64,000 nucleotides of DNA from an uncultured Pelagibacteraceae bacterium (GTDB lineage Bacteria; Pseudomonadota; Alphaproteobacteria; Pelagibacterales; Pelagibacteraceae): contig CACFTS010000001.1 of assembly GCA_902569285.1 (NCBI GenBank), positions 1 to 64,000 of the forward strand, given 5' to 3'. The notes beneath the pieces were generated by a model, which saw nothing but the letters and a program-made list of their open reading frames with translations, ran no database searches and was not told the DNA's origin. This document shows, in pieces, positions 2,122-22,111 of the stretch. Every line of letters starts with the position of its first letter. The first letter of the stretch is position 1. The position numbers were made by a program, and so were the translations under genes.

Positions 2122-3363
2122 TTACCCGATTAAAGCACCAACATTGAATATTGGAGAGTACATAGCGATCATAAGCCCTCCAATCATGATTCCCATAAAA
2201 ACAATCATAATAGGCTCAATTAAACTTGAAAGGTTCTCAACAACTGTATCGAACTCTGCCTCATAATATTTTGCAACTGAGCCAAACATTTCATCTAGTT
2301 GTCCAGTTTGTTCACCGACTGAAATAAGTTGTCCAAATGTAGGTGGAAACAAAGGATCTTTTAAAAATAATTTTGTTAATGTGTCTCCAGAAAAAACTCC
2401 TTTTTTTACATTCTCTAAAGACTCTAAAACAACCATATTAGTACTAACTGATTTTGCAATTTCTAAACTTTCAAGTAAATTCACACCTGCAGCACTTAAA
2501 TTACCCATAATTAATGAAATTCTAGCTAACATTGATTTTAATATCATGTCACCAAAGATTGGTAATTTCAAAACTCTTTTATGCCATGCGTATCTAATTT
2601 TTTCATTTTTTGCAGTTAAATATTTAAAAGCAACAAAGAAAGTTATAAGTGAAAGTAAAAGAATAAGACCACCTGTTCCTCTTAAAAAATCACTCATTGC
2701 CATAATTGTTGCCGTTGCAGCAGGTAATTTTATTCCCATTCCATCATACATTTTAGCAAATACTGGAACGACTTTAATTAACATGAAGGCACTGACGGTA
2801 ATTGCAACTGTAAACATAATGCTTGGATACATTAAAGCTGATTTTATTTTTTTTTTAATATTTTCTTTTTTTTCAAGAGACTCTACAATTTTATGCAAAA
2901 ATACATCCAACTTACCACTAGCTTCTCCAGCTTTTATTAAGTTTACATAAATGTTATCAAACAGTTCTGGATATTTTTCGAAGCATTTTGATAAAGTAAC
3001 CCCACCTTCTAAGCTTTTTCTTATATCTTCAATAACATCTTTCATTGCAGGGCTTTCTATCTGATCTCTTAACATTCCTAAAACTTGCAGAATAGGTAAG
3101 CCTGCTTTAACCATCGTAGCAAATTGCTTTGAAAACATTAAGACATCTTCGACTTTAGCTTTTTTTTTGCCAAAAAGACTTAAGCCTTTGCCTTTTTTCT
3201 TATCTTTTTCTCCAGATTTTTTCTTTTTTGAAGAACGTACTATATTGGTAATTATTATCTTTTGTTCTTTTAGTTTGTGAGATGCTTCATCTAAATTTAA
3301 AGCTTCGATTTCGCCATCTACATATTTTCCGTCAGAAATCCCTTTGTATGTAAAAGTTTCCAT
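2122..3363 (-). CDS. pilC: Type IV pilus / T2SS inner-membrane platform protein (PilC/GspF family)
   Basis: Two T2SF domains (FSKQFATMVKAGLPILQVL; ARISLIMGNLSAAGVNLLESLEIA), TM segments and C-terminal EPIMIVFMGIMIGGLMIAMYSPIF. Confidence 0.93.
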   Translation of the reverse strand: METFTYKGISDGKYVDGEIEALNLDEASHKLKEQKIIITNIVRSSKKKKSGEKDKKKGKGLSLFGKKKAKVEDVLMFSKQFATMVKAGLPILQVLGMLRDQIESPAMKDVIEDIRKSLEGGVTLSKCFEKYPELFDNIYVNLIKAGEASGKLDVFLHKIVESLEKKENIKKKIKSALMYPSIMFTVAITVSAFMLIKVVPVFAKMYDGMGIKLPAATATIMAMSDFLRGTGGLILLLSLITFFVAFKYLTAKNEKIRYAWHKRVLKLPIFGDMILKSMLARISLIMGNLSAAGVNLLESLEIAKSVSTNMVVLESLENVKKGVFSGDTLTKLFLKDPLFPPTFGQLISVGEQTGQLDEMFGSVAKYYEAEFDTVVENLSSLIEPIMIVFMGIMIGGLMIAMYSPIFNVGALIG

Positions 3364-3376
3364 AAATTAAAATTAT

Positions 3377-5128
3377 TTATTCGTTAGAAAGAACTCTTTC
3401 GTATTCTCTAAAATTAAGTTCCCCCGCTGCAATTAATCTTCTGCCCATATCTTGCATTGTTTGGAAACCTTCTTTAATTGCAATTTCTCTTAGTTCAGGA
3501 GTTGTTGCTTGCCTTAAGATTGCTTCTTTTATAGGTTTAGATACAGAAAGTATTTCATAAATACCTTGTCTTCCTTTATAGCCTGTGTCGCTACATTTTG
3601 CACAACCTTTTCCTTTAATAGCTTTAACTCTAGATGCTAATTCTGCTGTAAAACCTAAATCTTGTAAAACCTTTGGGGTAACATCATCATCAGGAACCTT
3701 GCAATCTTTACAATTTCTTCTCGCAAGTCTTTGTGCAAGAACAAGTTGACAAGCAGCGCTGATTAAATAATCGGGCGTACCCATATTTTGTAATCTAGTT
3801 ATAGTGCTTGGAGCATCATTCGTGTGCAGAGTACTAAATACTAAGTGCCCTGTTAATGCAGCTTTTAATCCAATATCTACCGTTTCTTTATCTCGCATCT
3901 CTCCAACAAGTATAATTTCCGGGTCTTGTCTTAAAAAAGATCTAAGTGCAGTAGCAAAAGTTAAACCTATATCATCTTTAATTTGAACTTGTCCAACTCC
4001 ATCTAATTCATATTCAACTGGATCTTCTGCTGTTAAAATATTTAAATGAGGTTTACTTACCTCTTTTAAAATACTGTAAAGAGTAGTCGATTTACCAGAT
4101 CCTGTAGGCCCTGTTACAAGAATTAAACCTTGAGTACCATGGATTGCTTTTCTTAAATTTTTTAAATCTTGTTCATCAAAATTAAGTTGCTCCAAAGTTA
4201 TGTCTCCTGCGTCTTTATTTAATACACGCATTACTATTCTTTCATTGTTTGCTGTTGGCAAAATTGAAAGTCGAAGATCCACTACTTTACCTTCGATTTT
4301 AAAATTTATTGCTCCATCTTGAGGAAGTCTTCTTTCTGCAATATCAAGTTTACCCATAATTTTAAAACGAGTTACGACAGCTCCATAATTGTCATGCAAA
4401 AATTTTTTATATTGTTCTTGTTCTTTGAGCATTCCATCCTGTCTATATCTTACTCTTGATGAAAATCTGAAAGGTTCAATATGAATATCACTTACTCCAT
4501 TTTTAATAGCATCAGCAACCACTGCCGTACTAAATTTTATTACCTCAGATTCATTTTCAATAGCTTCTATATCTTCCTCTGGTTTATCTTCTAGTATTTC
4601 TCCTGCCTCACCTAAATCAGAATCAAAAGTTTTTTGTTTTTCTTTATTTTCTTTTCTGATGGTTGCTGTAGTTACTTCACCACTCTCCGAAGATAAATTT
4701 TCTATAAACGTTGAAATTTGAGTTAATGGAGCCGCATGTAGTTCAATATTTTTTTTTGTTATTGCTTTTAGGTTTCTCATTAAATTAAGCTTAGAGCTAT
4801 CTGGGATTGCTATGTGTAAAGTTTTTCCATCCATTTTAAATGGAGCAACAAAATTTACTTTTATATAATTTGAAGGAAGAATAGTTTTAATTTCATCAGT
4901 TATTTCTTGTTTAGTTAAATCAACTATATCTAAATTTTGTTCTTTAACCAAAATATCAAGAATACTTTTTTCGTCAGTAAGTTTAAGATCAAATACTGCA
5001 TCTATTTGTGATTTATTACCCTCAGTGCTTGTCTTTTTAATCTTGATTAAATCTTTTCCAGAAATAATATCATTATCAATTAAAACATTGATTAAATTAA
5101 TTTCGCTTTCTCTGCTTATTTTTAACAT
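3377..5128 (-). CDS. pilB: Type IV pilus assembly ATPase (PilB/GspE family)
   Basis: Walker A GPTGSGKSTTLYS, Asp box, Walker B EIILVGEMRDKETVDIGLKAALTGHLVFSTLHTN, tetracysteine zinc motif CKDCK...CAKC. Confidence 0.95.
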   Translation of the reverse strand: MLKISRESEINLINVLIDNDIISGKDLIKIKKTSTEGNKSQIDAVFDLKLTDEKSILDILVKEQNLDIVDLTKQEITDEIKTILPSNYIKVNFVAPFKMDGKTLHIAIPDSSKLNLMRNLKAITKKNIELHAAPLTQISTFIENLSSESGEVTTATIRKENKEKQKTFDSDLGEAGEILEDKPEEDIEAIENESEVIKFSTAVVADAIKNGVSDIHIEPFRFSSRVRYRQDGMLKEQEQYKKFLHDNYGAVVTRFKIMGKLDIAERRLPQDGAINFKIEGKVVDLRLSILPTANNERIVMRVLNKDAGDITLEQLNFDEQDLKNLRKAIHGTQGLILVTGPTGSGKSTTLYSILKEVSKPHLNILTAEDPVEYELDGVGQVQIKDDIGLTFATALRSFLRQDPEIILVGEMRDKETVDIGLKAALTGHLVFSTLHTNDAPSTITRLQNMGTPDYLISAACQLVLAQRLARRNCKDCKVPDDDVTPKVLQDLGFTAELASRVKAIKGKGCAKCSDTGYKGRQGIYEILSVSKPIKEAILRQATTPELREIAIKEGFQTMQDMGRRLIAAGELNFREYERVLSNE

Positions 5129-5133
5129 TTTTT

Positions 5134-6687
5134 TTATAATATTCTTGGAGCAATAAACACCAATAATTCATCTAGTGTATCTGATTTACTCTTTCCTTGA
5201 AACATTTTTCCTATAATAGGTACCTTGTTCATGCCTGGAACACTTGATTTACTGTCTGAAACTACATTCTTTTTAATACCTCCGATTACAACTATGTCAC
5301 CGTCTGCGACTAATAATTTTGTATTAATTTCCATTGTATTAATTCCTACACTTCCAGCATTTGTTCTATTTGGAGAGTCGTTATTAACTTTTACGTCTAA
5401 AAGTACGTTTCCATCACCAATAATACTAGGTGTTACAGTCATTACTAGTGCAGCATCTTTATAAGTGTCTGCACCATCACCCCCTGCAACTGGTATTTGT
5501 TCACCTTGTTTGATTGTAGCTGTTTGGTTATCTAGAGAAAATATTTTTGGATTAGAAATAATTTTAGATAAACCTCGTTTTTCTAAAGCTTCTAATTCAA
5601 CTTTTAATACTGCTGAACCTGTTTTTTTTAATATACCTATACCACTTGTAGCAGCTCCTGCAGGAAAGTTTAGTATTGTATCTTTCCCTGCACCAAAGTT
5701 TGCAGTGTCATCACTTAGTACAGCATCTGGCCCTGAAGGTGCACCTACTGAACTACCACCTTGAGTACCTCCAATCCTTTCATCTTGTCTTGAATAAGCA
5801 CCACCTAATTTATTTCCTAACTCTTGTTCAAAAGAAGATTCAGCTTCAACAATAAATACTTCCATCAAAACTTGTTTAGTTCTTACATCTATTTCTCTAA
5901 TTACTTTATCTACAACGTCTAAATCTTTTTCTTTACCTCTGACAATAATTGAACGTGTTGTTTTTTCTTCTGTAACCTGAATTGGAACAAATGAACCAGT
6001 GTTTGAAGTTGAAGTAAATAATTCAACTATTGTTGCTTTCGCTTCTGCAGGAGAAATATAATAGAGTCTAAATATTTCAGAGATAATTGGTTCAACAGAA
6101 TCCTCTAATTCAACTTTTTTCTTCACAGCTTGCGCTCTAGCTGATTTATAACTTTCTTGCGAAGTCAGTGTTGCTGGTGTAGCTACTCTAATTATATTGC
6201 TTCCAACATCAATATCTGCTGCATAGTTTTTCATATCTAATAAAGCGTTAAATGCTTTATCCCAAGGAACTTCTACTAATTGCGCTGTAATTGAGCCAGC
6301 CACATCTTCGCCAACAAGAATATTTACACCACCAATTTTTCCCATCAATCTCATAGCTTCGCTATAATCCATGTTTTGAAAGTTAAAAGTTAAATTCTGT
6401 TTTAAACTCTTATACTCATCAGGAATTAAAAGATAATTTTTCTCTTTAACTGAAGAAATTTTCTTTCTTTTTTTAAGTTTTACGACATCTGCTTCTACCG
6501 GTATTGGTCCCATATCTGCTGTTTTCTCAAGCTCTGCTTTTCCTAATTTTTTAACATCTGTTTTGATTAAAGGAGTGTCATGTTTAAAACCTTTAGTTCC
6601 TTTTTTCCCCATAGTTGTACAACCCGCAAGAAATAATCCTATTAGAATTAAATTTACAAAAGTTTTAAAATAAGGTTTTGTCATCAA
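5134..6687 (-). CDS. Type IV pilus secretin, lipoprotein form (PilQ/MshL family)
   Basis: Lipobox LAGC at N-terminus; secretin N-domain (YSEAMRLMGKIGGVNILVGEDVAGSITAQLVEVPWDKAFNALL); C-terminal secretin signature (VPGMNKVPIIGKMFQGKSKSDTLDELLVFIAPRIL). Confidence 0.92.
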   Translation of the reverse strand: MMTKPYFKTFVNLILIGLFLAGCTTMGKKGTKGFKHDTPLIKTDVKKLGKAELEKTADMGPIPVEADVVKLKKRKKISSVKEKNYLLIPDEYKSLKQNLTFNFQNMDYSEAMRLMGKIGGVNILVGEDVAGSITAQLVEVPWDKAFNALLDMKNYAADIDVGSNIIRVATPATLTSQESYKSARAQAVKKKVELEDSVEPIISEIFRLYYISPAEAKATIVELFTSTSNTGSFVPIQVTEEKTTRSIIVRGKEKDLDVVDKVIREIDVRTKQVLMEVFIVEAESSFEQELGNKLGGAYSRQDERIGGTQGGSSVGAPSGPDAVLSDDTANFGAGKDTILNFPAGAATSGIGILKKTGSAVLKVELEALEKRGLSKIISNPKIFSLDNQTATIKQGEQIPVAGGDGADTYKDAALVMTVTPSIIGDGNVLLDVKVNNDSPNRTNAGSVGINTMEINTKLLVADGDIVVIGGIKKNVVSDSKSSVPGMNKVPIIGKMFQGKSKSDTLDELLVFIAPRIL

Positions 6688-7190
6688 TTGTTTCTTTCAA
6701 TAATTTGATTTTTAAAGTTGATTGCTACTAAGGAATCTTCCCCTCTTTCAAAAACTACCTCTTTTTGACTTATACTTATTAATTTTATGCCTGGCGATAA
6801 TTCTTCAAAAAAACCTAAATTTATAATTTCACCATCTTCATTAATTAGCGAAGCATACCCTTCATCTTTACCCACGATTACCCCAATCAGTTTGTAATTA
6901 AATACACTTAAGTTTCTTTTCTCCTCTTCTGTATCGGCAATTAATTTCACTGAACTTCCACCACCAAGGGAACCATCGCCAACAAAAGGGTCATTCAATG
7001 GCAAAGGTTCTTCCTTGCCAACTTCTGAACTTATATTTGAATTTTGTAATGCTTGTTGCTTTTTTATTTTTTGATTTATTTCTTTTGCTTTCTCAACAAT
7101 ATTTTTTTCGGTATCATGATTGTCTGCATACGCAATCGAAAATGTGAATAATACACAAATGATAAATATTAATTTTCTAAAAAAAATCAT
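6684..7190 (-). CDS. PilP/MshK-like pilus accessory protein
   Basis: Signal peptide; 'LNDPFVGDG...FNYKLIGVIVGKDEGYASLINEDGEIINLG' resembles PilP-type small beta domain; position in the operon between PilO-like and secretin genes. Confidence 0.6.
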   Translation of the reverse strand: MIFFRKLIFIICVLFTFSIAYADNHDTEKNIVEKAKEINQKIKKQQALQNSNISSEVGKEEPLPLNDPFVGDGSLGGGSSVKLIADTEEEKRNLSVFNYKLIGVIVGKDEGYASLINEDGEIINLGFFEELSPGIKLISISQKEVVFERGEDSLVAINFKNQIIERNN

Positions 7191-7878
7191 CTGCTAAACC
7201 TACTATTGTTAAAGTTCCATTTACTTTTATCGCTCCAGTTGAATCACCCATTCCTTTTACCACTTGTATAGACTCCTTGTCAAAATTTAACATTTTTTGT
7301 GATAAGGAAAGTTGTCTTTTAAACTTAATATATCCTAAAAAGTTACCAGTTATTTCGTAATCTACTGGAATTGTATAATAAGCAACATTTTTAACTGATT
7401 TTTTTTTCTTTTTCGTACTTTTTTTCTTCTTTTTTCCAGTTGCTTTTGCGATAGCATCTGATTTGGTGACTTCTTTAATATCTCTCTTTTCAATTTTAGA
7501 AATTACTAAATTATTCATGGCTGCAAATTCACTTAAAGTTTGATAAAGACCCTCAACTTCTGCTCTTGTATGAAATAATGTTGAATACTGCTCGTATTCA
7601 GGTCTCATTTTTTTAATTTTTTTATTTGCAATTTTAATATTTTGTATGAACTTTTCCGTTTCTTCTTTTTTTGAATTCATATCATTAAGTTGAGCTTTCT
7701 TTTTATTTACTATCGGATTCAAAACTCCATAAAATATGATTAAAAAAAATATTACAGCTCCAAAAGATATTCCAATTTTAATCCATGTTTTTTTCTCCAC
7801 TCTTTTTAGTTTCGCTTGAATATCTTCAAGAGATATGTTCTTTAAATCTATATTTTTAAAATCAATATTAAAATTCAT
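7177..7878 (-). CDS. PilO/MshJ-like pilus assembly protein
   Basis: Single N-terminal TM, coiled-coil, then ferredoxin-like region ('YYTIPVDYEITGNFLGYIKFKRQLS'); position after the PilM-PilN fusion gene. Confidence 0.75.
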   Translation of the reverse strand: MNFNIDFKNIDLKNISLEDIQAKLKRVEKKTWIKIGISFGAVIFFLIIFYGVLNPIVNKKKAQLNDMNSKKEETEKFIQNIKIANKKIKKMRPEYEQYSTLFHTRAEVEGLYQTLSEFAAMNNLVISKIEKRDIKEVTKSDAIAKATGKKKKKSTKKKKKSVKNVAYYTIPVDYEITGNFLGYIKFKRQLSLSQKMLNFDKESIQVVKGMGDSTGAIKVNGTLTIVGLADDFF

Positions 7879-7880
7879 AA

Positions 7881-10295
7881 CTAAACTTTCTTAATCTTAA
7901 CAAAAACTCTAAACCCTTTCATTGTAACACCACCTTTCGCTGTTCGAGGAAGTCTCATTGATGAAAGGGATGCTTGTTCAATTAATTTTTGTTTACCTAA
8001 ATTTTCAATAAATTTTAAAATATCTTGATCACTTGCTGCAACACCTTGGATTGTGATCATGTAACCACCGTTATAATCAACTTTGTCAAACTTCAGTTTT
8101 GAAGGCACACTCGATGCTATTTGAGCTAATACCCTGTAAGTTAATTCTTTATTAGATTTTAATGTACTGCTTAATTTTAAAGTTGTTTGTATTAGCTGCA
8201 GTTCTTTAGTAGTTTTCTTTAATTCTAATGATTTTTGTTCATGAATTTTCATAACATTAGAATAATTCTCAAGTTTTTTATTGTACGAATGAATATTCCA
8301 AAATGATAATGTAAATAATATTAAATATAATGCTGCAATACCAGTTGCTAATCCCTTAAAAGCAAAGCTAGATATTGCTTTCATTTTCTTTTTCTGGAAC
8401 ATGCTTTTTCTGTCTGGAAGTAAATTTATATTTTTTGCTGCGGTTACAAATTTATAATATCCAAATACATCAAGCTTTCTGAATGCTAAACCTATTGATG
8501 TAGTAAAGTATGATCTATTTTTTAAATTAACTTGTTGGTCAAATTGTTGTGGAACTTTTAAGCCTTCAATTGGATCAAATAAATTAAATCCAACATTCAT
8601 TAATGTTTTTCTAAAAATAGATAAATAATCCTCAACATTTTCTAAGTCTGAGACAACTTTTAAACTTCTAATTCTTTTTTCGTATTTAGTTTCAAAATCT
8701 TGAACTGCTTGTTTTACTTGTGTTGTGTATCTTCTTACTAATGCTTCTTTCTCCTCTGCATCTGTAGATTCTAATAAAATTTTTCTATCTTGGCCTCTTA
8801 AAAAAATATCAGTAATTATTGGATTATTATCATATAAAATCATTAAATAATTTTCATCTAAACCAAATTCTAAAACAGCTGTTAAATTTGCATCATCTTT
8901 TTTGTTTGAAATTTGATTAATTTGATCGACAGCAGATTTTAATGCGAAACATTTAACATCAATAATAACTGGATTTAGGCCACTATTTTTTACGATTGAT
9001 ACATAACCATTTATATCGGCTAATTTAGAAGCAACAAATAAGATATCCATGGTGTTATCTTTTTCATTTCTATTTATTACTTGATGAAAAATTGAATAAT
9101 CATCTAAATTATCTGTTAGCTGAACTAAGTTTTCCCATAATGAATTCGTTTCTATTGCTTTTTGTAACTCTTCATCTTTCAACAATGGAGAAGTGACTAC
9201 TCTTATTATTGCACTTGTAACTGGGATAGAAATAGCAACGTTCCCTACATCTATTTTTGATTTTTGTAATGCCAAACTAAGTTCTGTTGTAACCTTTTCA
9301 GCATTTTCTAAAACACTACTTTCATCTGGAATATCTACTTTATGAGTATAAAATTTTTCCAATACCCACTGATTATTCTTATCAGAGTTTATTTGTGCCA
9401 ATCTTATCTCTTTATTTGTAAGCTCAATACCAATTACTTCCTCTCCTTTAATTGAAGATTTTCCTATTTTTGATTTAAAAAAGTTTAATATTTTATTTAA
9501 AGAGTTATTTTTATTTTTAACCGGAGACTTAGGAAGTTTAATTCCTTTTAAAGAAGGTTTTTTAAATTTTAAATTCTTAAATTTACCTAAAATATTAGAA
9601 ACTTTATTTTTAGCAGTCGCATCAACACTATCTTCTGCTTTTTCTACAGCTTCATTGCTTAAAGTAACATCATTATTAACTCCAGACTGTATTTCGGTAC
9701 TTATATTTTGTTTGCTCACATTAGGAGTTGCTTCTGTTGAAACAGTTGGGCTAGGTTTTTCCTCCACATTTACTGTGGGATCGGGTTGTTCTTGAGTTAA
9801 TGGCTGATTTTGCTGTTGTTCTCCGGTTGTTTGTTGAATTTGTTGTCCTTCATCAGCAAGTTTTTTCAATTTCTCACTTTCAGAATGTATATCATCAAAC
9901 CATTTCTCTAAAATTGGAATTGCTTCATCAAGGTTTTGTGTTCCTGACGAAGAAATTTTTTGTTTTCCATCAATATAAAGTCTGCCTACCCAATTTTTTG
10001 ATTTAAGTTCACCTTTATATTTGTCTTGTCTTATATATATATGCAATCTTCCATCTTTTTTATGAATAACCTGATGTTCAGTTGCTTCTTTTTTAACTTC
10101 ATTGGCTGTTTCATCATTTTTCACTTGATTTTCAGAAACATTTTGGTTTTCAGAAACATTTTGGTTTTCACCAGAATTTTCATCAGGAGAATTGTCTAAG
10201 TTTTCATCAACCGAAGGTTGATTTTCAACTTTTTCACCATTTTCCTCATTTTCATTAGAGGAATTTATATTTTCATCTTTTTTATCTTCACTCAT
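7881..10295 (-). CDS. PilM-PilN fusion (MshI-like) with additional N-terminal basic beta-beta-beta-alpha domain
   Basis: Actin-like PilM core (GEEVIGIELTNKEIRLAQI...LTAVLEFGLDENYLMILYD), then TM and PilN-like C-terminus (RKSMFQKKKMKAISSFAFKGLATGIAALYLILFTLSFWN...SSVPSKLKFDKVDYNGGYMITIQGVA). N-terminus has an acidic low-complexity leader plus 'DGRLHIYIRQDKYKGELKSKNWVGRLYIDGKQKISSSGTQNLDEAIPILEKWFDDI'. Confidence 0.85.
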   Translation of the reverse strand: MSEDKKDENINSSNENEENGEKVENQPSVDENLDNSPDENSGENQNVSENQNVSENQVKNDETANEVKKEATEHQVIHKKDGRLHIYIRQDKYKGELKSKNWVGRLYIDGKQKISSSGTQNLDEAIPILEKWFDDIHSESEKLKKLADEGQQIQQTTGEQQQNQPLTQEQPDPTVNVEEKPSPTVSTEATPNVSKQNISTEIQSGVNNDVTLSNEAVEKAEDSVDATAKNKVSNILGKFKNLKFKKPSLKGIKLPKSPVKNKNNSLNKILNFFKSKIGKSSIKGEEVIGIELTNKEIRLAQINSDKNNQWVLEKFYTHKVDIPDESSVLENAEKVTTELSLALQKSKIDVGNVAISIPVTSAIIRVVTSPLLKDEELQKAIETNSLWENLVQLTDNLDDYSIFHQVINRNEKDNTMDILFVASKLADINGYVSIVKNSGLNPVIIDVKCFALKSAVDQINQISNKKDDANLTAVLEFGLDENYLMILYDNNPIITDIFLRGQDRKILLESTDAEEKEALVRRYTTQVKQAVQDFETKYEKRIRSLKVVSDLENVEDYLSIFRKTLMNVGFNLFDPIEGLKVPQQFDQQVNLKNRSYFTTSIGLAFRKLDVFGYYKFVTAAKNINLLPDRKSMFQKKKMKAISSFAFKGLATGIAALYLILFTLSFWNIHSYNKKLENYSNVMKIHEQKSLELKKTTKELQLIQTTLKLSSTLKSNKELTYRVLAQIASSVPSKLKFDKVDYNGGYMITIQGVAASDQDILKFIENLGKQKLIEQASLSSMRLPRTAKGGVTMKGFRVFVKIKKV
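10129..10164. repeat. 18-bp perfect tandem duplication encoding NQNVSE NQNVSE
   Basis: Two consecutive copies of ttttcagaaacattttgg; translated as a repeated ENQNVS in the acidic leader of the PilMN fusion. Confidence 0.9.
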
Positions 10296-11019
10296 AATTT
10301 TTAAAACACTCTAAAAAATATTTTTTAAAACGAATCTCTAACACAAATTTCATAATCTCTAACACAAATTGTTATAAACATCTAACACAAAACTATAAGT
10401 TGTATGCTCATTTTGGGTCAAATTTACAAAAAGTCAATAAAATCAACACTTTTAAGACTTTATTAAATTTTTAAACTTTTAAGATAATTTAACGGTAATT
10501 ATTAAAATTCTAACACAATTTTATAAAAGTCTAACACAATAGATTTTTTTTGATTGTGTTAGAGTATTTGAATTATGTAAAAATTCAAAAAAGCTAGTAA
10601 AATCAATGTTTTTGATTTTTTTAATTAAGGATAGACCTTTTGTGTTAGAGAAATACTTATTTGTGTTAGAGTAAAAAAACTTATTACTAAATTTAAAATA
10701 TTTTAATTTAAATCATGAAATATTTCCATTTCTACCTCAAAATTTGACAAATATCAGAAGTTGTATGTCTAAAATTACAATTTTTAATAGAAATTTACCT
10801 AAAAATACTTTTTTTACTTAAATATTAATTTTTTTACAAAATTAAACTTAAACTTTAACTATTATCATGCTGTTAACAGCTTGCATGCACCATTTAGAGT
10901 ATGCAACTTGGTATATATTTTTCAAAATAACGATTTTGGTATTCTAAATAGAGATTTTAATATTCTGAACATGAATTACATCTAAAAATAAATAAATAAC
11001 ATGGTTTCTAAAATATTTT
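10296..11019. promoter_or_regulatory. Candidate regulatory region upstream of the PilMN-PilO-PilP-secretin-PilB-PilC operon
   Basis: 724 bp with no ORF in the track, containing the TCTAACACAA array, a perfect palindrome GCTGTTAACAGC (10869-10880) and other short repeats; immediately 5' of the minus-strand operon that starts at 10295. Confidence 0.6.
10337..10670. repeat. Array of eight TCTAACACAA decamers (5 direct, 3 inverted) in a long intergenic region
   Basis: + strand copies at 10337-10346, 10358-10367, 10381-10390, 10509-10518, 10530-10539; reverse-complement TTGTGTTAGA at 10554-10563, 10640-10649, 10661-10670. Start-to-start spacings of 21, 23, 21, 24 and 21 bp within clusters. Confidence 0.95.
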
Positions 11020-12856: not shown

Positions 12857-14140
12857 TTAATTTCCATCAATAGTAACAATTGTTAAATCATCTTTTTGAA
12901 CTCTATCTGATTTAATTAAGTCTTCAATTATTTTACTTAGTCTTTGAGAATTGGGTACACTTTGATATTTTTTTATATAATTTTGAAAACCTTCTTGTCC
13001 TAGCATCTCTCCTTTTGTATCTTTCATCTCTGTTATACCATCAGTAAATATATACATTGAGCTTTCCTTGAAAGAAATTAATTTTTCTGTAAATTTAAAC
13101 TTTGGAGCTATGCCTAACGGCGGACCTGCTTCTTCAAAGTTTGAAAAGTCTCCTCCCTTAGAAAAAATTAAAGGTGGTTCATGTCCTGCGTTAGATAAGA
13201 GTAATTCTTTTTTGTTACTATCAAAGATACCAATCACCATTGTCACAAACATACCTCTTGATGCTGTCTCACATATTTCATCATTAAGAATTTTCAAAAG
13301 TTCTGCTGCAGAAAAAATAGTTTTACTTAAGCATCGATAAAGGCTTGAAGCCTTAGACATTAATAATGATGACTTAATTCCTTTTCCAGATACATCAGCA
13401 ACACCAAAACCAAATCTTCCTTCACCAAGATCTGAAAAATTATAAAAGTCCCCAGAGACAACCTTTGCTGGAATATTTATGCCGGCAATAGGAAAAGGAT
13501 CTTTTTTATTTTGAGACAATAAAGTTTTTTGAATATCCCCGACAATTTCTATTTCTTTTTGCATTCTATTTTTATCAATCAATTCTTTTGCAGTTTTTGC
13601 ATTTTTAATCGCAAGTGCTGCTGGTCCTGATAAAGTTTCTAAAAGTTTTCTATCACTCTCTTCAAACAGTTTTGTATTTGTTTTTTTATTTAAACAATGA
13701 ATAACACCTATACATTCTCCCGAAACTATTAAGGGTGAACATAAAACAGAATAAGTTGTAAAGTTTGTTTTATTATCTAGATCAAAATAAAATTCTGCTA
13801 TTTCTCTTACATCTTTTCTTACGTCACCCACTCTAATACACTTTTTAGTCGCTGTAGCTTTACCCATTACTCCCTGAGTAATTGGTATTTCAAAATCTTC
13901 AAGATAAGCTTGATACTTTGATGCGATACATTGAAAAACTTGTTTTTTCTCTTCAATAAAAAAAACATTTGCTGCTTGAGCGTTTATTCTTTTAATGATT
14001 ACTTCAAGCGCATTCTGTAATGTCTCTTTTAAATCTAGAGAGCCTGCAAGCTCGTTGTTCATTTGTGTAATTAAAGCTAGGTCTTTACTGGAAGTATCCT
14101 CCACTTTATTTACTTCAGGTTTTTTTGAACCAAAAAACAT
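12857..14140 (-). CDS. GAF-domain SpoIIE/PP2C-type phosphatase (RsbU-like)
   Basis: GAF region (LKETLQNALEVIIKRINAQAANVFFIEE...VLCSPLIVSGECIGVIHCLNKK) then SpoIIE (VVSGDFYNFSDLGEGRFGFGVADVSGKGIKSSLLMSKAS, SNAGHEPPL, IFTDGITEM). Confidence 0.9.
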   Translation of the reverse strand: MFFGSKKPEVNKVEDTSSKDLALITQMNNELAGSLDLKETLQNALEVIIKRINAQAANVFFIEEKKQVFQCIASKYQAYLEDFEIPITQGVMGKATATKKCIRVGDVRKDVREIAEFYFDLDNKTNFTTYSVLCSPLIVSGECIGVIHCLNKKTNTKLFEESDRKLLETLSGPAALAIKNAKTAKELIDKNRMQKEIEIVGDIQKTLLSQNKKDPFPIAGINIPAKVVSGDFYNFSDLGEGRFGFGVADVSGKGIKSSLLMSKASSLYRCLSKTIFSAAELLKILNDEICETASRGMFVTMVIGIFDSNKKELLLSNAGHEPPLIFSKGGDFSNFEEAGPPLGIAPKFKFTEKLISFKESSMYIFTDGITEMKDTKGEMLGQEGFQNYIKKYQSVPNSQRLSKIIEDLIKSDRVQKDDLTIVTIDGN

Positions 14141-15074: not shown

Positions 15075-15280
15075 TGGAAAAATTACTTTTCTTTAATATA
15101 ATCGTATCCTCATTAAATATTTTTATAATTGTATACGCTTACTCATTAAATTTTTTTCCAAAAAAATGGAGGAAGAAAGTTAATCAAGATACTTTGGTTG
15201 GTCTTACGTTAATTTTTTTTACTATGCTTACTATGTTTGCTTGGATTATATATTTTTATCTAAAAATTTTTAAATTTTGA
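15074..15280 (+). CDS. Small hypothetical membrane protein
   Basis: 68-aa ORF directly after pilD; two hydrophobic segments. Confidence 0.45.
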   Translation: MEKLLFFNIIVSSLNIFIIVYAYSLNFFPKKWRKKVNQDTLVGLTLIFFTMLTMFAWIIYFYLKIFKF

Positions 15281-17042
15281 ATTTAAATACAAGATTTGCC
15301 AGTACGCTGATAGCGTCTTGACTAGAAGTAAATCCATCTAAATTAAATGAAAAAATACTATTCTCATTTGCTTTATATTTATAATTTAAATTACTTGAAA
15401 AACTTGCTTCTTTTTTTAATTCATCGTCTTGATCATAAAAAGTGCTTGTCCCATTAATCAAATAATTTTGATCATCATTATTTGCCAAAGTTCTGTAATC
15501 TAGAATCCACCCTAAAGAAAAATTTCTTTTATCACTTTGAAAAAAAGTATATTCATCACTTAGAGCCGCAGAAATATTAAGAACATGTCTATCATCCCAA
15601 TCAAAATATTGACTTTCTTTATGTGAGGGCGTGTATGAATACCCTAATGTATAACCAATATCAGGTATTAAAAAACTATTATTAAGTTTATTGCCAAATA
15701 AAATTTCAAAATTCTCATAGTTATCTGTAACATTTAATAAACCACTTGAAGTAGTATTGGTAAGAATTAATCTTTCACTTTTATTTAGGGCTATTCCTCC
15801 TAATAAAAAATATTCACCTTTTAATTTTTTACTGTTTTGATGATTATTAAAATAAAATCCTGATAGTATACTTATACGATCTACATCATGATCTTTAGAA
15901 ATATTTTGTAAACTCGTCTCAGCAGATATAACAAAATTTAAATTTTCTAAAGGTTTTATAATATTAGCACCAAAATTTACTAAACTATTTTCCAACTTTA
16001 AAGAACTACTTTTTCCATCTCTTTTAAGTAATGATGAAAATGTTTCTACCCAAGCAGTGTCACGATCTAAAAATTGATCACTATTTTTAAATTGAGTTAA
16101 AGATTTTCTTATATTTAAAGATTTATATCCTAAAGACTCATCTATAAATTCATTTCCTCCTTGTCCAACGGAACCTGCTGAGCCTTTAACAACATTGTTT
16201 CCATCTAAATCTTCTAATGTTAAATTACCAGATGTTTCATAAAAGTAACTCTTTCCTACGCCATGTTGTAATTTTAAAGTATTATTAGACCCACTGGAAT
16301 CAATTATACCAACAACTATACCACCATCTTTTAATGTTAAGGTATTGTTGTTTCCATACAATTCAATTGCAGTTGCACTAGGTCCTTGATTATTTTTAAT
16401 AGTACCACTGTTTGTTATGGTTGAAGTCTTTCTAATTCTAAGTGTGGATTTACTACTACTATTACTTGTTATTTCACCACCCGAATGATTTGTTAAGGTT
16501 AAAGTTTCTGTATTATCAGTTGAATAAATAGTGTTACCCTGTCCACCTGTTGTTGTGCTATAAATTTTTCCATGATTGTTTATAGTTACTGTATCAGAAG
16601 CTCCAACTGATATTGTCCTACCACTTGCATAAATGCTACCACCAGAATTATTAGTTATAGTTGCACCAGATGAATTAGCTAAATCTATAGCTTTAGTGCT
16701 TTCAGAAGAAGAAACGGTTCCTGAATTATTAACTGTTAAACCATCGGAAGCATTACCATAAATTGCATTTCCTCCAGTTGTTGTTTTTACTATTGAGTCA
16801 GAAGATATAACAACTGTTGCATTATTTGCTTCAGCTGATTCAGTGGTATTAATTTTTATAGAATAATTAGCTTTAGAAATAGTAGAATTTGTAATTGTTA
16901 AAGTAATATCTGCAGCATCTTTGATATGCTGTTGAGTAGTTCTTGTTTCACCACTTATTGTTTGGCTTTCAGTTATATTCTCAGCATTTAATTTTGTAAT
17001 AAATATTAAAAAAAAAAAAAATAATTTTAAAATTCTAAACAT
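15270..17042 (-). CDS. Autotransporter-like surface protein: beta-helical Ser/Thr/Asn-rich passenger plus C-terminal beta-barrel
   Basis: Signal peptide; repetitive 'TITNNSGGSIYASGRTISVGASDTVTINNHGKIYSTTTGGQGNTIYS' passenger; C-terminal amphipathic strands ending in hydrophobic residues (ANLVFKFKI). Confidence 0.7.
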   Translation of the reverse strand: MFRILKLFFFFLIFITKLNAENITESQTISGETRTTQQHIKDAADITLTITNSTISKANYSIKINTTESAEANNATVVISSDSIVKTTTGGNAIYGNASDGLTVNNSGTVSSSESTKAIDLANSSGATITNNSGGSIYASGRTISVGASDTVTINNHGKIYSTTTGGQGNTIYSTDNTETLTLTNHSGGEITSNSSSKSTLRIRKTSTITNSGTIKNNQGPSATAIELYGNNNTLTLKDGGIVVGIIDSSGSNNTLKLQHGVGKSYFYETSGNLTLEDLDGNNVVKGSAGSVGQGGNEFIDESLGYKSLNIRKSLTQFKNSDQFLDRDTAWVETFSSLLKRDGKSSSLKLENSLVNFGANIIKPLENLNFVISAETSLQNISKDHDVDRISILSGFYFNNHQNSKKLKGEYFLLGGIALNKSERLILTNTTSSGLLNVTDNYENFEILFGNKLNNSFLIPDIGYTLGYSYTPSHKESQYFDWDDRHVLNISAALSDEYTFFQSDKRNFSLGWILDYRTLANNDDQNYLINGTSTFYDQDDELKKEASFSSNLNYKYKANENSIFSFNLDGFTSSQDAISVLANLVFKFKI

Positions 17043-17059
17043 AAAAATATTTTAATTTA

Positions 17060-20000
17060 CTAAAAACTACTATCTCTCCAACCACCTTTATTGGTTATAA
17101 TTTCTCCTGGAATTGATAGGATCGAAAATAAAGTGCTCGCATCATCAGAAGGTCCCGCAACATTGGCGTATAACTTGTCTCCAAAGACAACAAGCTCTGA
17201 TAATACACCTTTTCTAACAAATCCACACCTAAGGTCTACTGCCCCATCTGAAGGATTAGCTATTGATACACCATCATCATCTACTGGATTAAATTCTAAT
17301 TCATCTAGTTGGGCAGAAGTGTTAGTTCCACACTCATCATCTGCTGCACAAATAAATGCATTTCCTTGATCGCATTTGTTAGCACCTGGAGGTGGTTGGT
17401 AAATTGGATAATAAACTTGTCCTTTAAATAAAGTAGGGGGCGCTGATGCTTTTCTAAATGTTCTAGGTAAAACAAAAGATCCTGAGTCATTTTGTTCTAA
17501 ATGTGCAACCCAAGCTCTGGCACCGGTTTTTAAAGGACAATTACTACCAGATGAATCTCCTGAAGTGTTAACACAAGTTGTGCTATTATCTATGTTGTCA
17601 GCACTGCTTGCTCCTTGATTTGCTAATTTTATAAACTCTGGATTAATTTGCATAGGAACAGCTCCTGGTGATTCTACTGCAGTTGGTATTGTAACCGAAT
17701 TCAAATGTGCCCAATATGGATAGTGTTCATCTTTTATTCCATATAAAATGTTATCCAATTCATTTGCTCTTCCACCAAGATCAGTAAAGTTTCCAGTTGA
17801 ACCAAACAACCAAAAACCACCATCACTTAATCCTAAACCTGCATCCATTGAAAAATATGAATATCTTCCATTATCTTGGGAAGCTTTTAAATTAAATAAA
17901 GTAGTTTGATCAAAAATTTCTGTCGTCCCTGGTATCAAATTACCAGTATCAGCAGTAGCGCCAGGATTATATCCTTTTGTATTATTGGTTAAATTTATTT
18001 TTGTAATTTTACCTTCAAGATCATTAATATAGACTAGTGCTCCTCTCCAAGGAATATTTGGCGCCGTATCAGGAGTGATAACAACTGGAGAGGCTGGAAT
18101 TGCGTTTGTAATATCACTTCCATTTGGAGTGGAAAATACCGTTTGTCCCAAAGTCAATCCACTAGGTGATGTATCCACTATAGTAATAGGCCCGCCGTTA
18201 TCTTGTGCTCCAAATAAACTTCCAGGTTTACCATCAGCGTGACCCTCAAGATCAACTAAGAATACTGCAGAACCTGAACATGCATCATTTCTAGCCATAC
18301 CAGCACCGAATATTGCCACATACCTGTCTCCTTCAATACCACTTCCTAATGTTGAAAAACCTGTAACACCAGATGTTGGTATTCTAGCTATTTTTGGAGT
18401 TGACCAAGTTTCACCTAACTGAGAGTAATCATATTCCGCTGGTAAACCAGAAGCTCCTAAACATGCTGTTATACTAATTTGATTTGAAATTGTTGGTTCA
18501 GTATCTGATTGATTGGCATTAAAAGCTTTAATACCATCAAATGTTATCTGCAAAAGAGCTCCTCCAACACCATCGTCTACCATTTTTGCTTTTGTAATTG
18601 GCACAGCTTGTGGGGCTCCACCAACAAGTTGTGTTGCACTTAAAACACCATCTGGGATCTTGTCTCCTAAAGGATATTCCAAAATAATTTCTGGGAAATG
18701 AAAAGTCTTACCTTTATAACAAGAAGCCGTTCCTGTATTTCTAAAATCAGACGAAGTGCTACATGCTGCAATTTTATTCTGTTCGGTAAATGTGTCATCA
18801 CTGGTTTCTTCGTCCGTATCTCTAGCTTTTTGAAAATTATCTGTAGCCACCTCTCCTTCCAGTGAGGTAAGTAAAGATCCAGAACCTGCATTATAATCGA
18901 ACTCTGTTATAATACCATTAACATCAGCACGTAATATCTTTTGATTAATTTTATCATTAAAAATCGAAAACATATGAATTGGACCTTTGCCTCCATCTGC
19001 ACCAGGTTCTGTAATATCTAGTACTGAAAAACCTGCACCACCTCTTCCATAAGGTATCACCGCTAATGTACGCCAGGATTTTGTACCTGATAGTCCTAAA
19101 TTTTGATTATACCCTCTTATAAATACATCATGAACAACTGGAGATCCATCAACACCAAAAATTGGATTAGTTCCACCACCTCCATCTACTTTACCATCAT
19201 AATCTCTGTTTATAATTTGAGGTAAGAGTGAACCAACAAAAGGAGGGATAAAGCCCCATTGTTCTTTACCAGTTTCCTCATTTATGGCATGAAAGACTCC
19301 ACTGTTAGAACCTGCATAAACTATCTTTTTTCTGTTTGCTTGTTCTGTCATAAAACCTTGATAATTATTAGTGGCTCTATAATAAGCTTCTTGATTAGTA
19401 TTTGTGAAAGCGATATTTGCATCAGGAGGCCCAACTTCTATAAGTTGAGAATGGTATATATCTCCCATAACATGAGCCCTAACTTCTTCTACGTCACAGT
19501 TAGCATTATAATCAAAATAGTCATTACCTTTCATAAAGTTAATCAAACCCTTTACCTCATCGCCTAAATTTGTATCAGCACCCACTGCTGGGCAATCTGA
19601 TGTACTATGGTGGTAATCTGGAATAGTATATCCCAATTTATCAAACATATTTTTTAAGGCAGTAGAGTTACCAGTATTAAAATTATCCCAACTTTTTGCA
19701 TATGTGTCTCCAGGACTCCACGCCGTCCAAAGCTTCCTAGTATCAGGCGCACTTCCTGCGGTCGACTGACCTTTTATCATAGTCGCAGCGCTCCAATTAC
19801 CATGAGTATTTCCAGGTGACGTATCATGCTCAACACAATCATCGCTTGTATCAGTATTAGTATCATCACATTTACCTGGTTTCAGAAATTTCTTTAATAT
19901 AGTTCCACGCCATTCACCATACTGTTCGTAAGCAAATTGCGCTTGATATATCGATCCACCCTTTTGAATAGTGGCCGAAATAGATGGAGCAGTAAATGCA

Positions 20001-22111
20001 AGTTTATCTGCAATAATTTGTCTAATTTTACTAGTTAAGTCTGATTTTAAATCTTCTGGTGTGTTAGCTATTATTGCTCTTTCACAATCTTCATCCTCTA
20101 TACACTCCTGTGCAGTTGCTGATGCGGCTAATTCGCTAGAACCTATTCTTGCAAGATGATGAAACCTATTTAAATTTGTACCGGTTATGCCACCACCGTA
20201 AGCTACATAAAGAGATTTAACTCCCATTTTTCTCAATGCTTCCATTCTGGCTGCTGTTTGACCACCTGCTCCCAAAACTCCCGTATTAGTCATAGCACCA
20301 TCTCCAATCACAATAACGTAATTCAATTGACATTCAGAATCTGGGTCTATAATTGATCCTCCTGCGTTTGAATCTTTAAAGTAATCATAAGCTATTTGTG
20401 AAAATGCATGAGAGTCTGTTCCCCATGCCATCCCTAATGGGTTTAAAGTACCCATAATTAAATCTGCTCCTCCTGGACTTACCGCAACATTTAAACAAGA
20501 GTCTCTATTGCATTGTGAGCTTGTTCCATTTGGATGAACTCTTGTTTGTGAACCAGTATCACTTTGAGCTATCTCTAAAACTGGACTTTCAGTTGGAACT
20601 CCAGTAATCGGATCTGTTGTTGTTGTTGTAATTACATTTCCATCCGCATCTTTTGATTCTACCCAGCTAAAAGTTGTGTTAAATCCACCCCAACCTTGAT
20701 AATATGTACAATCAGAGTTTCTATGGCAATAACGTCCACCTCTATCACGACCTCTTGGACCCCCATTCTCACCAGCATTCCAGTGGCCAAAACCAAAATA
20801 TGCTCCTGTTGTAAGTGTACTATCATTAACTATAGCATTTATTGCTTGCTTAACTCCGTCCCATCTTCTTAATCTTGGACCGCCCATCTGTTGAAGCCAA
20901 GTTGTATTTCTTTGTGCAGCTGTGAAAAGATCTTCATTAAATTCATCTACATAACCCCCAGATGTTGCAGTTAGAATTCTAGTACTTGTTACATGAAGAC
21001 CCCAAGGTTGATTAAAATTAATATTATCTGCAGCTAATGCACCTGAAGTTCCTGAATTTGAAGAAATTGATGCTGTTCCCGTTCCAACACTTGTGACAAC
21101 TTCACAAGTATCATCATCTGTAGTTCCGGCTGTACCATCAGCATCAAATTGTAATTTTTGTATCGCATGATTAAAGTGAGATGTTATATAGATAATATCA
21201 CTATCATCAGGCGACACTTCTACACCCGTTGCAAACATTATTTCCGAAGTCAAGTTTGGGTCGTTTACAGCGGTACACCTTCTTGTTTCAGCTCCTAATT
21301 CAAATGCTGCACCGGCTGCTACAAGAGAATGACCTACTAAATCACCATTTACGTTTGAAGAAAAATAAATTATTGTTCCTTCATTATTGACACTTATTCT
21401 CATTGACCTTCTTGTAATATCATTCATACTTATAAAATCTTGTTGAGTGCATAGCATGTTTGTAAGATTACAAGATTTAAAAAAACTCCAACTTCTCCGA
21501 GAATGTCCTCCTGACATGAAGATATAAGGTGTTCCATTAATAGTTTTAATATCAAAATCGTATATTATTTGTCCAGCTGCACCACGTAATGCAAACCTAC
21601 ACTCTGTCCCATCCTCTGAAAAACCTAATACATGATCCCAGCTTCGTCTTTCTCTACTGTTCATAAAAATTATATTTTCGTTATTTATGACTGTTGAAGT
21701 CAGGCCTGCTAAAAATTTTACCGTTGAAGTTCTTCTTAACCAACTGTTTCTACCACGAAAATTATTAGTAACGTCTGTTTGCTGCGCACAACCAGCAGCT
21801 GGAATTCCTCTAATTGGTCTAAAGGTAGTATCTCTTGCTCCCGCTGCTGTATATCTTATTAACCCTCCCATAGTTCTTCTACCTTGTTGTCCAATCAAAA
21901 TTCTTCCCTGCGAGTCATATGTAATCCCAGAGGCTATACCAAGCCCGTCACCTCCGATCCATCTACCCATACTTGCAGAACTGTCTACTAAAAATAAAAT
22001 ATTTGCTTTTACATCACCATCTCCAGCCCCTGGTGGTACTGGTTTAGCATTTGCATTACTGTTTAAAATTAATGCAAATAAAAATACAAAAAGTTTTAAA
22101 TATTTAAACAT
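17060..22111 (-). CDS. Giant PilY1-like pilus tip protein with von Willebrand A and beta-propeller domains
   Basis: Signal peptide; VWA MIDAS 'ILFLVDSSASMG'; later 'NYVIVIGDGAMTNTG'; PilY1 propeller motifs (RKKIVYAGSNSGVFHAINEETGKEQWGFIPPFVGSLLPQI; GVDGSPVVHDVFI); located in a cluster with minor pilins. Confidence 0.88.
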   Translation of the reverse strand: MFKYLKLFVFLFALILNSNANAKPVPPGAGDGDVKANILFLVDSSASMGRWIGGDGLGIASGITYDSQGRILIGQQGRRTMGGLIRYTAAGARDTTFRPIRGIPAAGCAQQTDVTNNFRGRNSWLRRTSTVKFLAGLTSTVINNENIIFMNSRERRSWDHVLGFSEDGTECRFALRGAAGQIIYDFDIKTINGTPYIFMSGGHSRRSWSFFKSCNLTNMLCTQQDFISMNDITRRSMRISVNNEGTIIYFSSNVNGDLVGHSLVAAGAAFELGAETRRCTAVNDPNLTSEIMFATGVEVSPDDSDIIYITSHFNHAIQKLQFDADGTAGTTDDDTCEVVTSVGTGTASISSNSGTSGALAADNINFNQPWGLHVTSTRILTATSGGYVDEFNEDLFTAAQRNTTWLQQMGGPRLRRWDGVKQAINAIVNDSTLTTGAYFGFGHWNAGENGGPRGRDRGGRYCHRNSDCTYYQGWGGFNTTFSWVESKDADGNVITTTTTDPITGVPTESPVLEIAQSDTGSQTRVHPNGTSSQCNRDSCLNVAVSPGGADLIMGTLNPLGMAWGTDSHAFSQIAYDYFKDSNAGGSIIDPDSECQLNYVIVIGDGAMTNTGVLGAGGQTAARMEALRKMGVKSLYVAYGGGITGTNLNRFHHLARIGSSELAASATAQECIEDEDCERAIIANTPEDLKSDLTSKIRQIIADKLAFTAPSISATIQKGGSIYQAQFAYEQYGEWRGTILKKFLKPGKCDDTNTDTSDDCVEHDTSPGNTHGNWSAATMIKGQSTAGSAPDTRKLWTAWSPGDTYAKSWDNFNTGNSTALKNMFDKLGYTIPDYHHSTSDCPAVGADTNLGDEVKGLINFMKGNDYFDYNANCDVEEVRAHVMGDIYHSQLIEVGPPDANIAFTNTNQEAYYRATNNYQGFMTEQANRKKIVYAGSNSGVFHAINEETGKEQWGFIPPFVGSLLPQIINRDYDGKVDGGGGTNPIFGVDGSPVVHDVFIRGYNQNLGLSGTKSWRTLAVIPYGRGGAGFSVLDITEPGADGGKGPIHMFSIFNDKINQKILRADVNGIITEFDYNAGSGSLLTSLEGEVATDNFQKARDTDEETSDDTFTEQNKIAACSTSSDFRNTGTASCYKGKTFHFPEIILEYPLGDKIPDGVLSATQLVGGAPQAVPITKAKMVDDGVGGALLQITFDGIKAFNANQSDTEPTISNQISITACLGASGLPAEYDYSQLGETWSTPKIARIPTSGVTGFSTLGSGIEGDRYVAIFGAGMARNDACSGSAVFLVDLEGHADGKPGSLFGAQDNGGPITIVDTSPSGLTLGQTVFSTPNGSDITNAIPASPVVITPDTAPNIPWRGALVYINDLEGKITKINLTNNTKGYNPGATADTGNLIPGTTEIFDQTTLFNLKASQDNGRYSYFSMDAGLGLSDGGFWLFGSTGNFTDLGGRANELDNILYGIKDEHYPYWAHLNSVTIPTAVESPGAVPMQINPEFIKLANQGASSADNIDNSTTCVNTSGDSSGSNCPLKTGARAWVAHLEQNDSGSFVLPRTFRKASAPPTLFKGQVYYPIYQPPPGANKCDQGNAFICAADDECGTNTSAQLDELEFNPVDDDGVSIANPSDGAVDLRCGFVRKGVLSELVVFGDKLYANVAGPSDDASTLFSILSIPGEIITNKGGWRDSSF

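Follow-up and report, generated by a model that had tools for sequence, protein, structure and literature searches.

SAR11 bacteria are among the most abundant in the ocean, and possess very few regulators. In the window studied here (the whole 64-kb stretch of DNA that was analysed, from a Pelagibacter (SAR11) genome whose named locus relatives are Pelagibacteraceae single-cell genomes), the first gene of a pilus operon specifies a PilM-PilN fusion protein (PilMN) with a module near its N-terminus resembling the arm-binding domain of integrases, and the DNA upstream of this gene carries an array of short repeated sites. The locus raises the question of what a putative DNA-binding domain would be doing in a structural pilus protein, and of where the domain and the sites came from.

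The PilM-PilN fusion and its N-terminal module

An earlier note on this DNA, made from its letters, had placed an integrase arm-like domain at about residues 76–136 (9888–10070) of the protein, ahead of an actin-like PilM and a transmembrane PilN. The open reading frame, of 804 amino acids, is present on the minus strand (7881–10295; Table 1) and the coordinates do correspond to these residues. Downstream of the module the PilM_2 (PF11104) and PilN (PF05137) matches both exceed the curated Pfam cut-offs, and the hydrophobic stretch at about residues 648–666 fits a PilN transmembrane helix; against the longer TIGR01175 pilM model the protein scores 75 bits (cut-off 133 bits). There is no recombinase catalytic domain (R-K-H/K-R-Y), PilM and PilN being found in its place, and the protein is therefore not a recombinase. 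As in the type IVa and MSHA pili, the PilM_2 and PilN domains are encoded first in a pilMNOPQ-like operon, followed by the genes for the secretin, the assembly ATPase (T2SSE) and the platform protein PilC (T2SSF). The difference is that here PilM and PilN form a single polypeptide with the module in front. From PilM biology, the module should lie on the cytoplasmic side.

Table 1. Features of the pilMN locus, in window coordinates.
Feature	Position	Strand	Basis
PilM-PilN fusion gene with integrase arm-like N-terminal module, 804 aa	7881..10295	-	ORF; PilM_2 and PilN Pfam matches over cut-off
Acidic disordered N-terminal tail, residues 1-75; missing from early-branching fusions	10071..10295	-	identity, charge, composition
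Arm-binding-like module, residues 76-137, putative DNA-binding	9885..10070	-	homology to recombinases L126-L128; AlphaFold; conservation
Variable linker, residues 138-285, basic stretch ahead of PilM	9441..9884	-	identity, charge
PilM (actin-like) domain, residues 289-493	8817..9431	-	PF11104 E 3.6e-18
PilN transmembrane helix, about residues 648-666	8298..8354	-	hydrophobic stretch GLATGIAALYLILFTLSFW in translation
PilN periplasmic domain, residues 721-784	7944..8135	-	PF05137 E 1.6e-8
PilO-like gene	7177..7878	-	weak PilO Pfam match (E 0.0043, below cut-off) and operon position
Probable PilP-like gene	6684..7190	-	operon position between pilO and secretin only; no family match
Secretin (PilQ/MshL-like)	5134..6687	-	PF00263 E 1.3e-39
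Assembly ATPase (PilB/MshE-like)	3377..5128	-	PF00437 E 1.4e-123, MshEN
Platform protein (PilC/T2SSF)	2122..3363	-	PF00482 E 2.1e-57
Array site 1 TCTAACACAA, proximal triple	10337..10346	+	
Array site 2, proximal triple	10358..10367	+	
Array site 3, proximal triple, directly downstream of predicted -10 box	10381..10390	+	
Array site 4, central cluster	10509..10518	+	
Array site 5, central cluster	10530..10539	+	
Array site 6, inverted, central cluster	10554..10563	-	
Array site 7, inverted, distal pair	10640..10649	-	
Array site 8, inverted, distal pair	10661..10670	-	
Predicted pilMN promoter TTGACC-18-TATAGT	10392..10421	-	best-scoring promoter-like match in region; consensus match only
Conserved second motif AAAGTCAATAAAATCAACACTTTT, IHF-like core AATCAA, between proximal and central clusters	10430..10453	+	alignment of 20 upstream regions
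Second copy of IHF-like motif, between central and distal clusters	10590..10613	+	alignment of 20 upstream regions

Across 67 fusions conservation is highest in the module (mean pairwise identity 88%), followed by the PilMN core (67%), the linker (25%) and the tail (21%). The tail has a mean net charge of -16 and is composed to 71% of D, E, N, Q, S, T and P; the linker has a mean net charge of +5. As 72 Pelagibacter pilMN genes possess the module, it is not a chance resemblance; among these copies a few are cut by contig ends and one (G357) has a frameshift in the linker. Additional weak matches, to a SecD-like protein (G025:C9), in G297 and to a stop-containing sequence (G116:C9), were judged to be noise.

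The module segment was modelled with AlphaFold using 33 related sequences (mean pLDDT 85, pTM 0.71). In segment numbering the model possesses strands at 13–17, 31–37 and 40–45 and a C-terminal helix at 51–74, in agreement with the three strands plus helix proposed earlier. The arm-binding (AB) domains of integrases, which are highly variable, consist of three beta-strands then one helix (PMC8138268), and the predicted topology of the module matches this description. Profile searches of Pfam, NCBIfam and PDB revealed no match to the module, Foldseek comparison of the model with PDB and BFVD gave none at E <= 0.001 (best E 0.61), and the Pfam arm families PF14657 and PF13356 were not found in its own genome. 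The confident fold match which the earlier note had named as support was thus not obtained. Weak viral Foldseek matches (GIY-YIG/Mug113-like, and two integrases) were not counted as evidence.

Since fold comparison alone does not settle the matter, the identification is based upon direct homology to integrases. In three tyrosine recombinases encoded at tRNA-Leu (L126, L127 and L128), a domain 54–62% identical to the module forms the N-terminus, ahead of core-binding and catalytic domains; in one of these, from genome G145, it heads, with 59% identity, a 425 amino acid protein matching Phage_integrase. The module-bearing recombinase matches Phage_integrase (PF00589) at E 9.7e-8, over the cut-off, and a PHROG integrase at E 2e-6. 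An AlphaFold model of the whole integrase, built from three sequences, had a mean pLDDT of 41 and was not usable. This homology, together with the arm-like repeats around the attP core of those integrases, bears out the arm-domain reading: the comparisons support the view that the module is an integrase AB domain, and it would presumably bind DNA in a sequence-specific manner. With the AB domains of lambda Int, Tn916 Int and IntSXT (Pfam clan CL0081; PMC8138268) it shares the small N-terminal architecture of three strands and one helix, and its close homologs head integrases whose attP core has repeated arm-like sites on either side. It differs from them in being joined to PilM-PilN rather than to core-binding and catalytic domains, in its membrane tether, and in a sequence too distant from the Pfam arm families for detection.

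Beside the pilus genes are two large reading frames without a Pfam match at E <= 0.01, coding for a 1683 amino acid protein of von Willebrand/PilY1-like appearance (17060–22111) and a 590 amino acid repetitive, autotransporter-like protein (15270–17042). A GAF-SpoIIE phosphatase gene (12857–14140) also adjoins the pilus region, and is kept nearby in relatives L057, L064, L116 and L117.

The site array and its linkage to the module

As had been noted earlier, pilMN is the first gene downstream of a CTCTAACACAA array: eight exact copies of TCTAACACAA lie directly upstream of it, at 10337–10670, and none elsewhere in the window (0.25 expected by chance). Five are in one orientation and three inverted, with steps of 21–23 bp within the triple and the pairs. 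Taken over 450 pilMN sites, the consensus reads (C)TCTAACACAA. When 20 upstream regions are aligned, all eight sites are seen to be conserved, whereas the sequence between them varies. Between the clusters are two copies of a second motif, TGTTGATTTTAYTGACTTTTTT, the core of which is one mismatch from the IHF consensus WATCAANNNNTTR; as to IHF identity, this is only a resemblance. Among relatives, the copies of this motif occur in both orientations. The combination of two-orientation sites with intervening bend-like motifs recalls attP, again as a resemblance only.

The predicted promoter ends two bases before the first proximal site it meets, site 3, so that transcription would be expected to start inside this site. 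At the early-branching loci L111–L113 a site sits in the spacer of a promoter-like sequence (TTGACA-17-TATTGT), and in 15 of the 19 upstream regions having a match of at least 10/12 the best promoter-like match overlaps a site; such calls are consensus matches only, and weak in AT-rich DNA.

In genome G150, all seven exact sites in the 400 kb read lie in the array. A DNA uptake sequence, which would be present in hundreds of dispersed copies, was rejected on account of this confinement in G150 and in the window. An RNA element was also rejected, since sites occur in either strand and most of them lie upstream of the promoter, as were replication origin iterons or an origin-proximal centromere, with dnaA 313–321 kb away from the array in G150 and G035.

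The module is carried by 73 of 399 Pelagibacter genomes, in PilMN in 72 of them and in an integrase in the remaining one. The array pattern, which was searched for independently of the protein and with a reversed-pattern control that gave zero, was discovered in 67 of these 73 genomes and in none of the other 326. The six carriers lacking a pattern match comprise the integrase genome, two in which the contig stops close to the gene, and three whose arrays vary in site sequence or spacing. Where a fusion locus has 430 bp or more of upstream sequence (54 loci), it always contains at least three sites (median 8). Fisher's test gives P 1e-69 for the association, a value that overstates independence because the genomes are related; no more than about three gains or losses are supported by the tree. 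The connection which had been drawn between domain and array is supported by this near-complete co-occurrence, and by the joint absence of both in module-less PilMN relatives.

Module-bearing integrases and the probable capture of the module

The module-bearing tyrosine recombinases were found in AG-920-D05, AG-447-K09 and the TMED44 circle (contig NHCX01000044.1), all three adjoining tRNA-Leu(CAA) sequences. Contig NHCX01000044.1 (L128/L129) repeats with a 5,065-bp period, in about three tandem copies, and reads as tandem copies, or a circle, of an element of about 5 kb. This element contains the tyrosine integrase, a complete tRNA-Leu(CAA) of its own, a serine resolvase and small genes, with attP arm-like sites on both sides. 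The contig has been assigned to a Verrucomicrobia MAG, but SAR11 genomes contain integrated copies related to it.

The attP core of NHCX01000044.1, which is common to the tRNA-Leu anticodon loop, is flanked by ACTCTTACACAACTCTAACAC on one side and ACTCTTACACTACTCTTACAC on the other, and an inverted TTGTGTTATAA adjoins the start of int; in integrated copies the same right-hand sites are found in the stretch separating the tRNA remnant from int. The integrase version of the site is TCTTACACAA. Pairs of CTCTTACACWA 11 bp apart are located on both sides of the integrase attP core, where arm sites belong, with TATAACACAA beside int, and these sites are one base from those of the pilMN array. All copies of CTCTWACACWA in the 2.4-Mb TMED44 assembly are inside the element. 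Compared with Markov shuffles, sites are enriched upstream of int in L127 (P 0.001) and L128 (0/2000), and more weakly in L126. Neither tblastn of the integrase and the domain against phage and plasmid records nor scans of viral contigs with the integrase and its catalytic part gave a significant match.

Phages with tRNA-dependent lysogeny, such as Fionnbharth, carry their own tRNA (PMC10865867). The putative donor element is similar to these phages and to tycheposon-like marine elements in its arm-domain tyrosine integrase, its short-core attP in the tRNA anticodon region and its own intact tRNA. It differs in its size of about 5 kb, in its serine resolvase, and in where it is found (SAR11 genomes, and a repeat unit of 5,065 bp), and no phage or plasmid record searched matches it.

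In a tree of the PilMN core, one deep clade of 17 is module-bearing throughout, and eight closely related module-less PilMN, from which the array is absent too, nest in a second, mostly module-bearing clade. The tree requires about three changes, and its rooting is not firm, the outgroup rows lying on very long branches. The module looks old in the genus, and to have been lost together with the array at least once. A single module-bearing PilMN (G107; L107/L091 region) is found within the module-less clade, through either repeated loss or regain by recombination.

Module-less pilMN genes lie in divergent orientation to a pilT-like ATPase gene, and at L111–L113 the array lies between pilMN and that same gene. 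Several early-branching fusions start with the module (METIHKKDGRLHIY), as integrases do, and have an inverted site pair 34 bp apart directly before the gene (32 bp in integrases). Since both the start and the site layout are integrase-like, domain and sites were probably captured together. The simplest history is that the element integrated upstream of pilMN, the catalytic part was lost, and the arm domain became fused to PilM with the sites remaining. The direction of transfer would thus be from integrase to pilMN. The reverse is formally conceivable, although integrases normally possess an arm domain.

Proposed control of the pilus operon

Because the exact sites are confined to this locus in the long stretches read (the 64 kb of the window and 400 kb of G150), local autoregulation of pilMN by the protein it encodes is favoured over a regulon, and because they cover the predicted promoter, repression is the most likely mode of control. 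We propose, with reasonable though by no means full confidence, that PilMN is a membrane-tethered pilus protein with a captured arm domain which binds its own array and represses its own operon. The arm domain of a tRNA-Leu-targeting SAR11 mobile element would have been captured by pilMN along with the array upstream of the integrase gene. The fused protein would be held in the inner membrane by PilN, its module would lie ahead of PilM on a flexible tether in the cytoplasm, and this module would bind the (C)TCTAACACAA sites that cover the pilMN promoter and start region and extend about 280 bp upstream in phased clusters. Several PilMN molecules would be bound at once, and an IHF-like protein acting at the two conserved inter-cluster motifs might fold them together. 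Given enough free PilMN, the pilMNOPQ-B-C operon would be shut down, and the assembly machine would in this way measure its own subunit. DNA binding, the direction of capture, repression, membrane-tethered feedback and the sensing of pilus assembly are what we infer here. Two points count against repression: an array of eight sites and about 330 bp is larger than simple repression needs, and an identical site layout could also activate. Tentatively, and with a probability that we put rather low, the whole recognition module of the element (arm domain, attP-like array and IHF-like bend sites) may have been domesticated as a unit, membrane PilMN wrapping the array in an intasome-like manner and joining the pilus motor to its own operon, such that the assembly state sets expression.

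The size of the array, with its many phased sites beyond the extent of an ordinary operator, and the membrane location and flexible linkers of the binder would also suit a tether, in which PilMN anchors the locus at the inner membrane near the pilus machine and couples transcription, assembly and position, or holds the chromosome; in one variant, the coupling consists of co-localised insertion of the operon products. We regard this as unlikely, since the proximal sites lie on the predicted promoter. The distance to dnaA makes an origin-linked tether improbable, and in G150 the array is also off the weak GC-skew minimum; a tether of another kind is possible. Binding could, on the other hand, recruit RNA polymerase, the array being an upstream activating region. 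Activation by transmembrane regulators is well known (PMC10269533), most of the clusters are upstream of the promoter, and the predicted promoters are weak. With ToxR, CadC and TcpP (PMC10269533), PilMN would share a cytoplasmic DNA-binding domain on a membrane protein with a single transmembrane segment; it differs in that the part in the membrane belongs to the structure of the pilus machine itself, its domain is of the integrase arm type, and its target appears to be its own operon. Activation of the ToxR/CadC type is nonetheless distinctly unlikely, for in most lineages a site covers the spacer, -10 region or start of the predicted promoter, which suits repression.

That the module is a DNA-binding relic devoid of present function, persisting with the array by hitchhiking, we consider very improbable. 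Relatives with PilMN lacking module and array are viable, but no other part of the protein is as well conserved across deep branches as the module, the sites are kept while their spacers drift, and relics drift in streamlined genomes such as these. Hardly credible at all is the proposal that the module is not an arm domain, the array belonging to another regulator and the integrase likeness reflecting a shared, unrelated adaptor. The module does lack a Pfam or PDB match, but its linkage to the array is near complete, matching sites are found at the integrase's own attP, and it occupies the N-terminal position in the recombinase.

A literature search, thin on subscription journals, revealed no arm domain outside recombinases and no DNA-binding domain in any pilus assembly protein, and found membrane-bound regulators described only with other architectures. 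The individual parts are known, but in the literature covered neither their combination nor a capture of such a domain along with its sites was found. Roughly one fifth to one quarter of the sampled Pelagibacter genomes place a putative DNA-binding domain in a structural pilus protein. If self-repression by PilMN is correct, a regulator was made by transferring both halves of a mobile element's recognition system together, and the pilus machine governs its own gene without a separate transcription factor. The idea is open to direct test with one small domain and short oligonucleotides.

Viral contigs L121–L125 encode proteins of about 116 amino acids (e.g. L124:4983–5333) with the same arm domain and a C-terminal transmembrane helix. 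The domain is 67–77% identical to that of the integrase, and the flank following it also matches the integrase; CTCTWACACWA was not found on these contigs. Possibly this is a second membrane-anchored use of the domain, in which the phage proteins may act on the sites of the host pilMN array.
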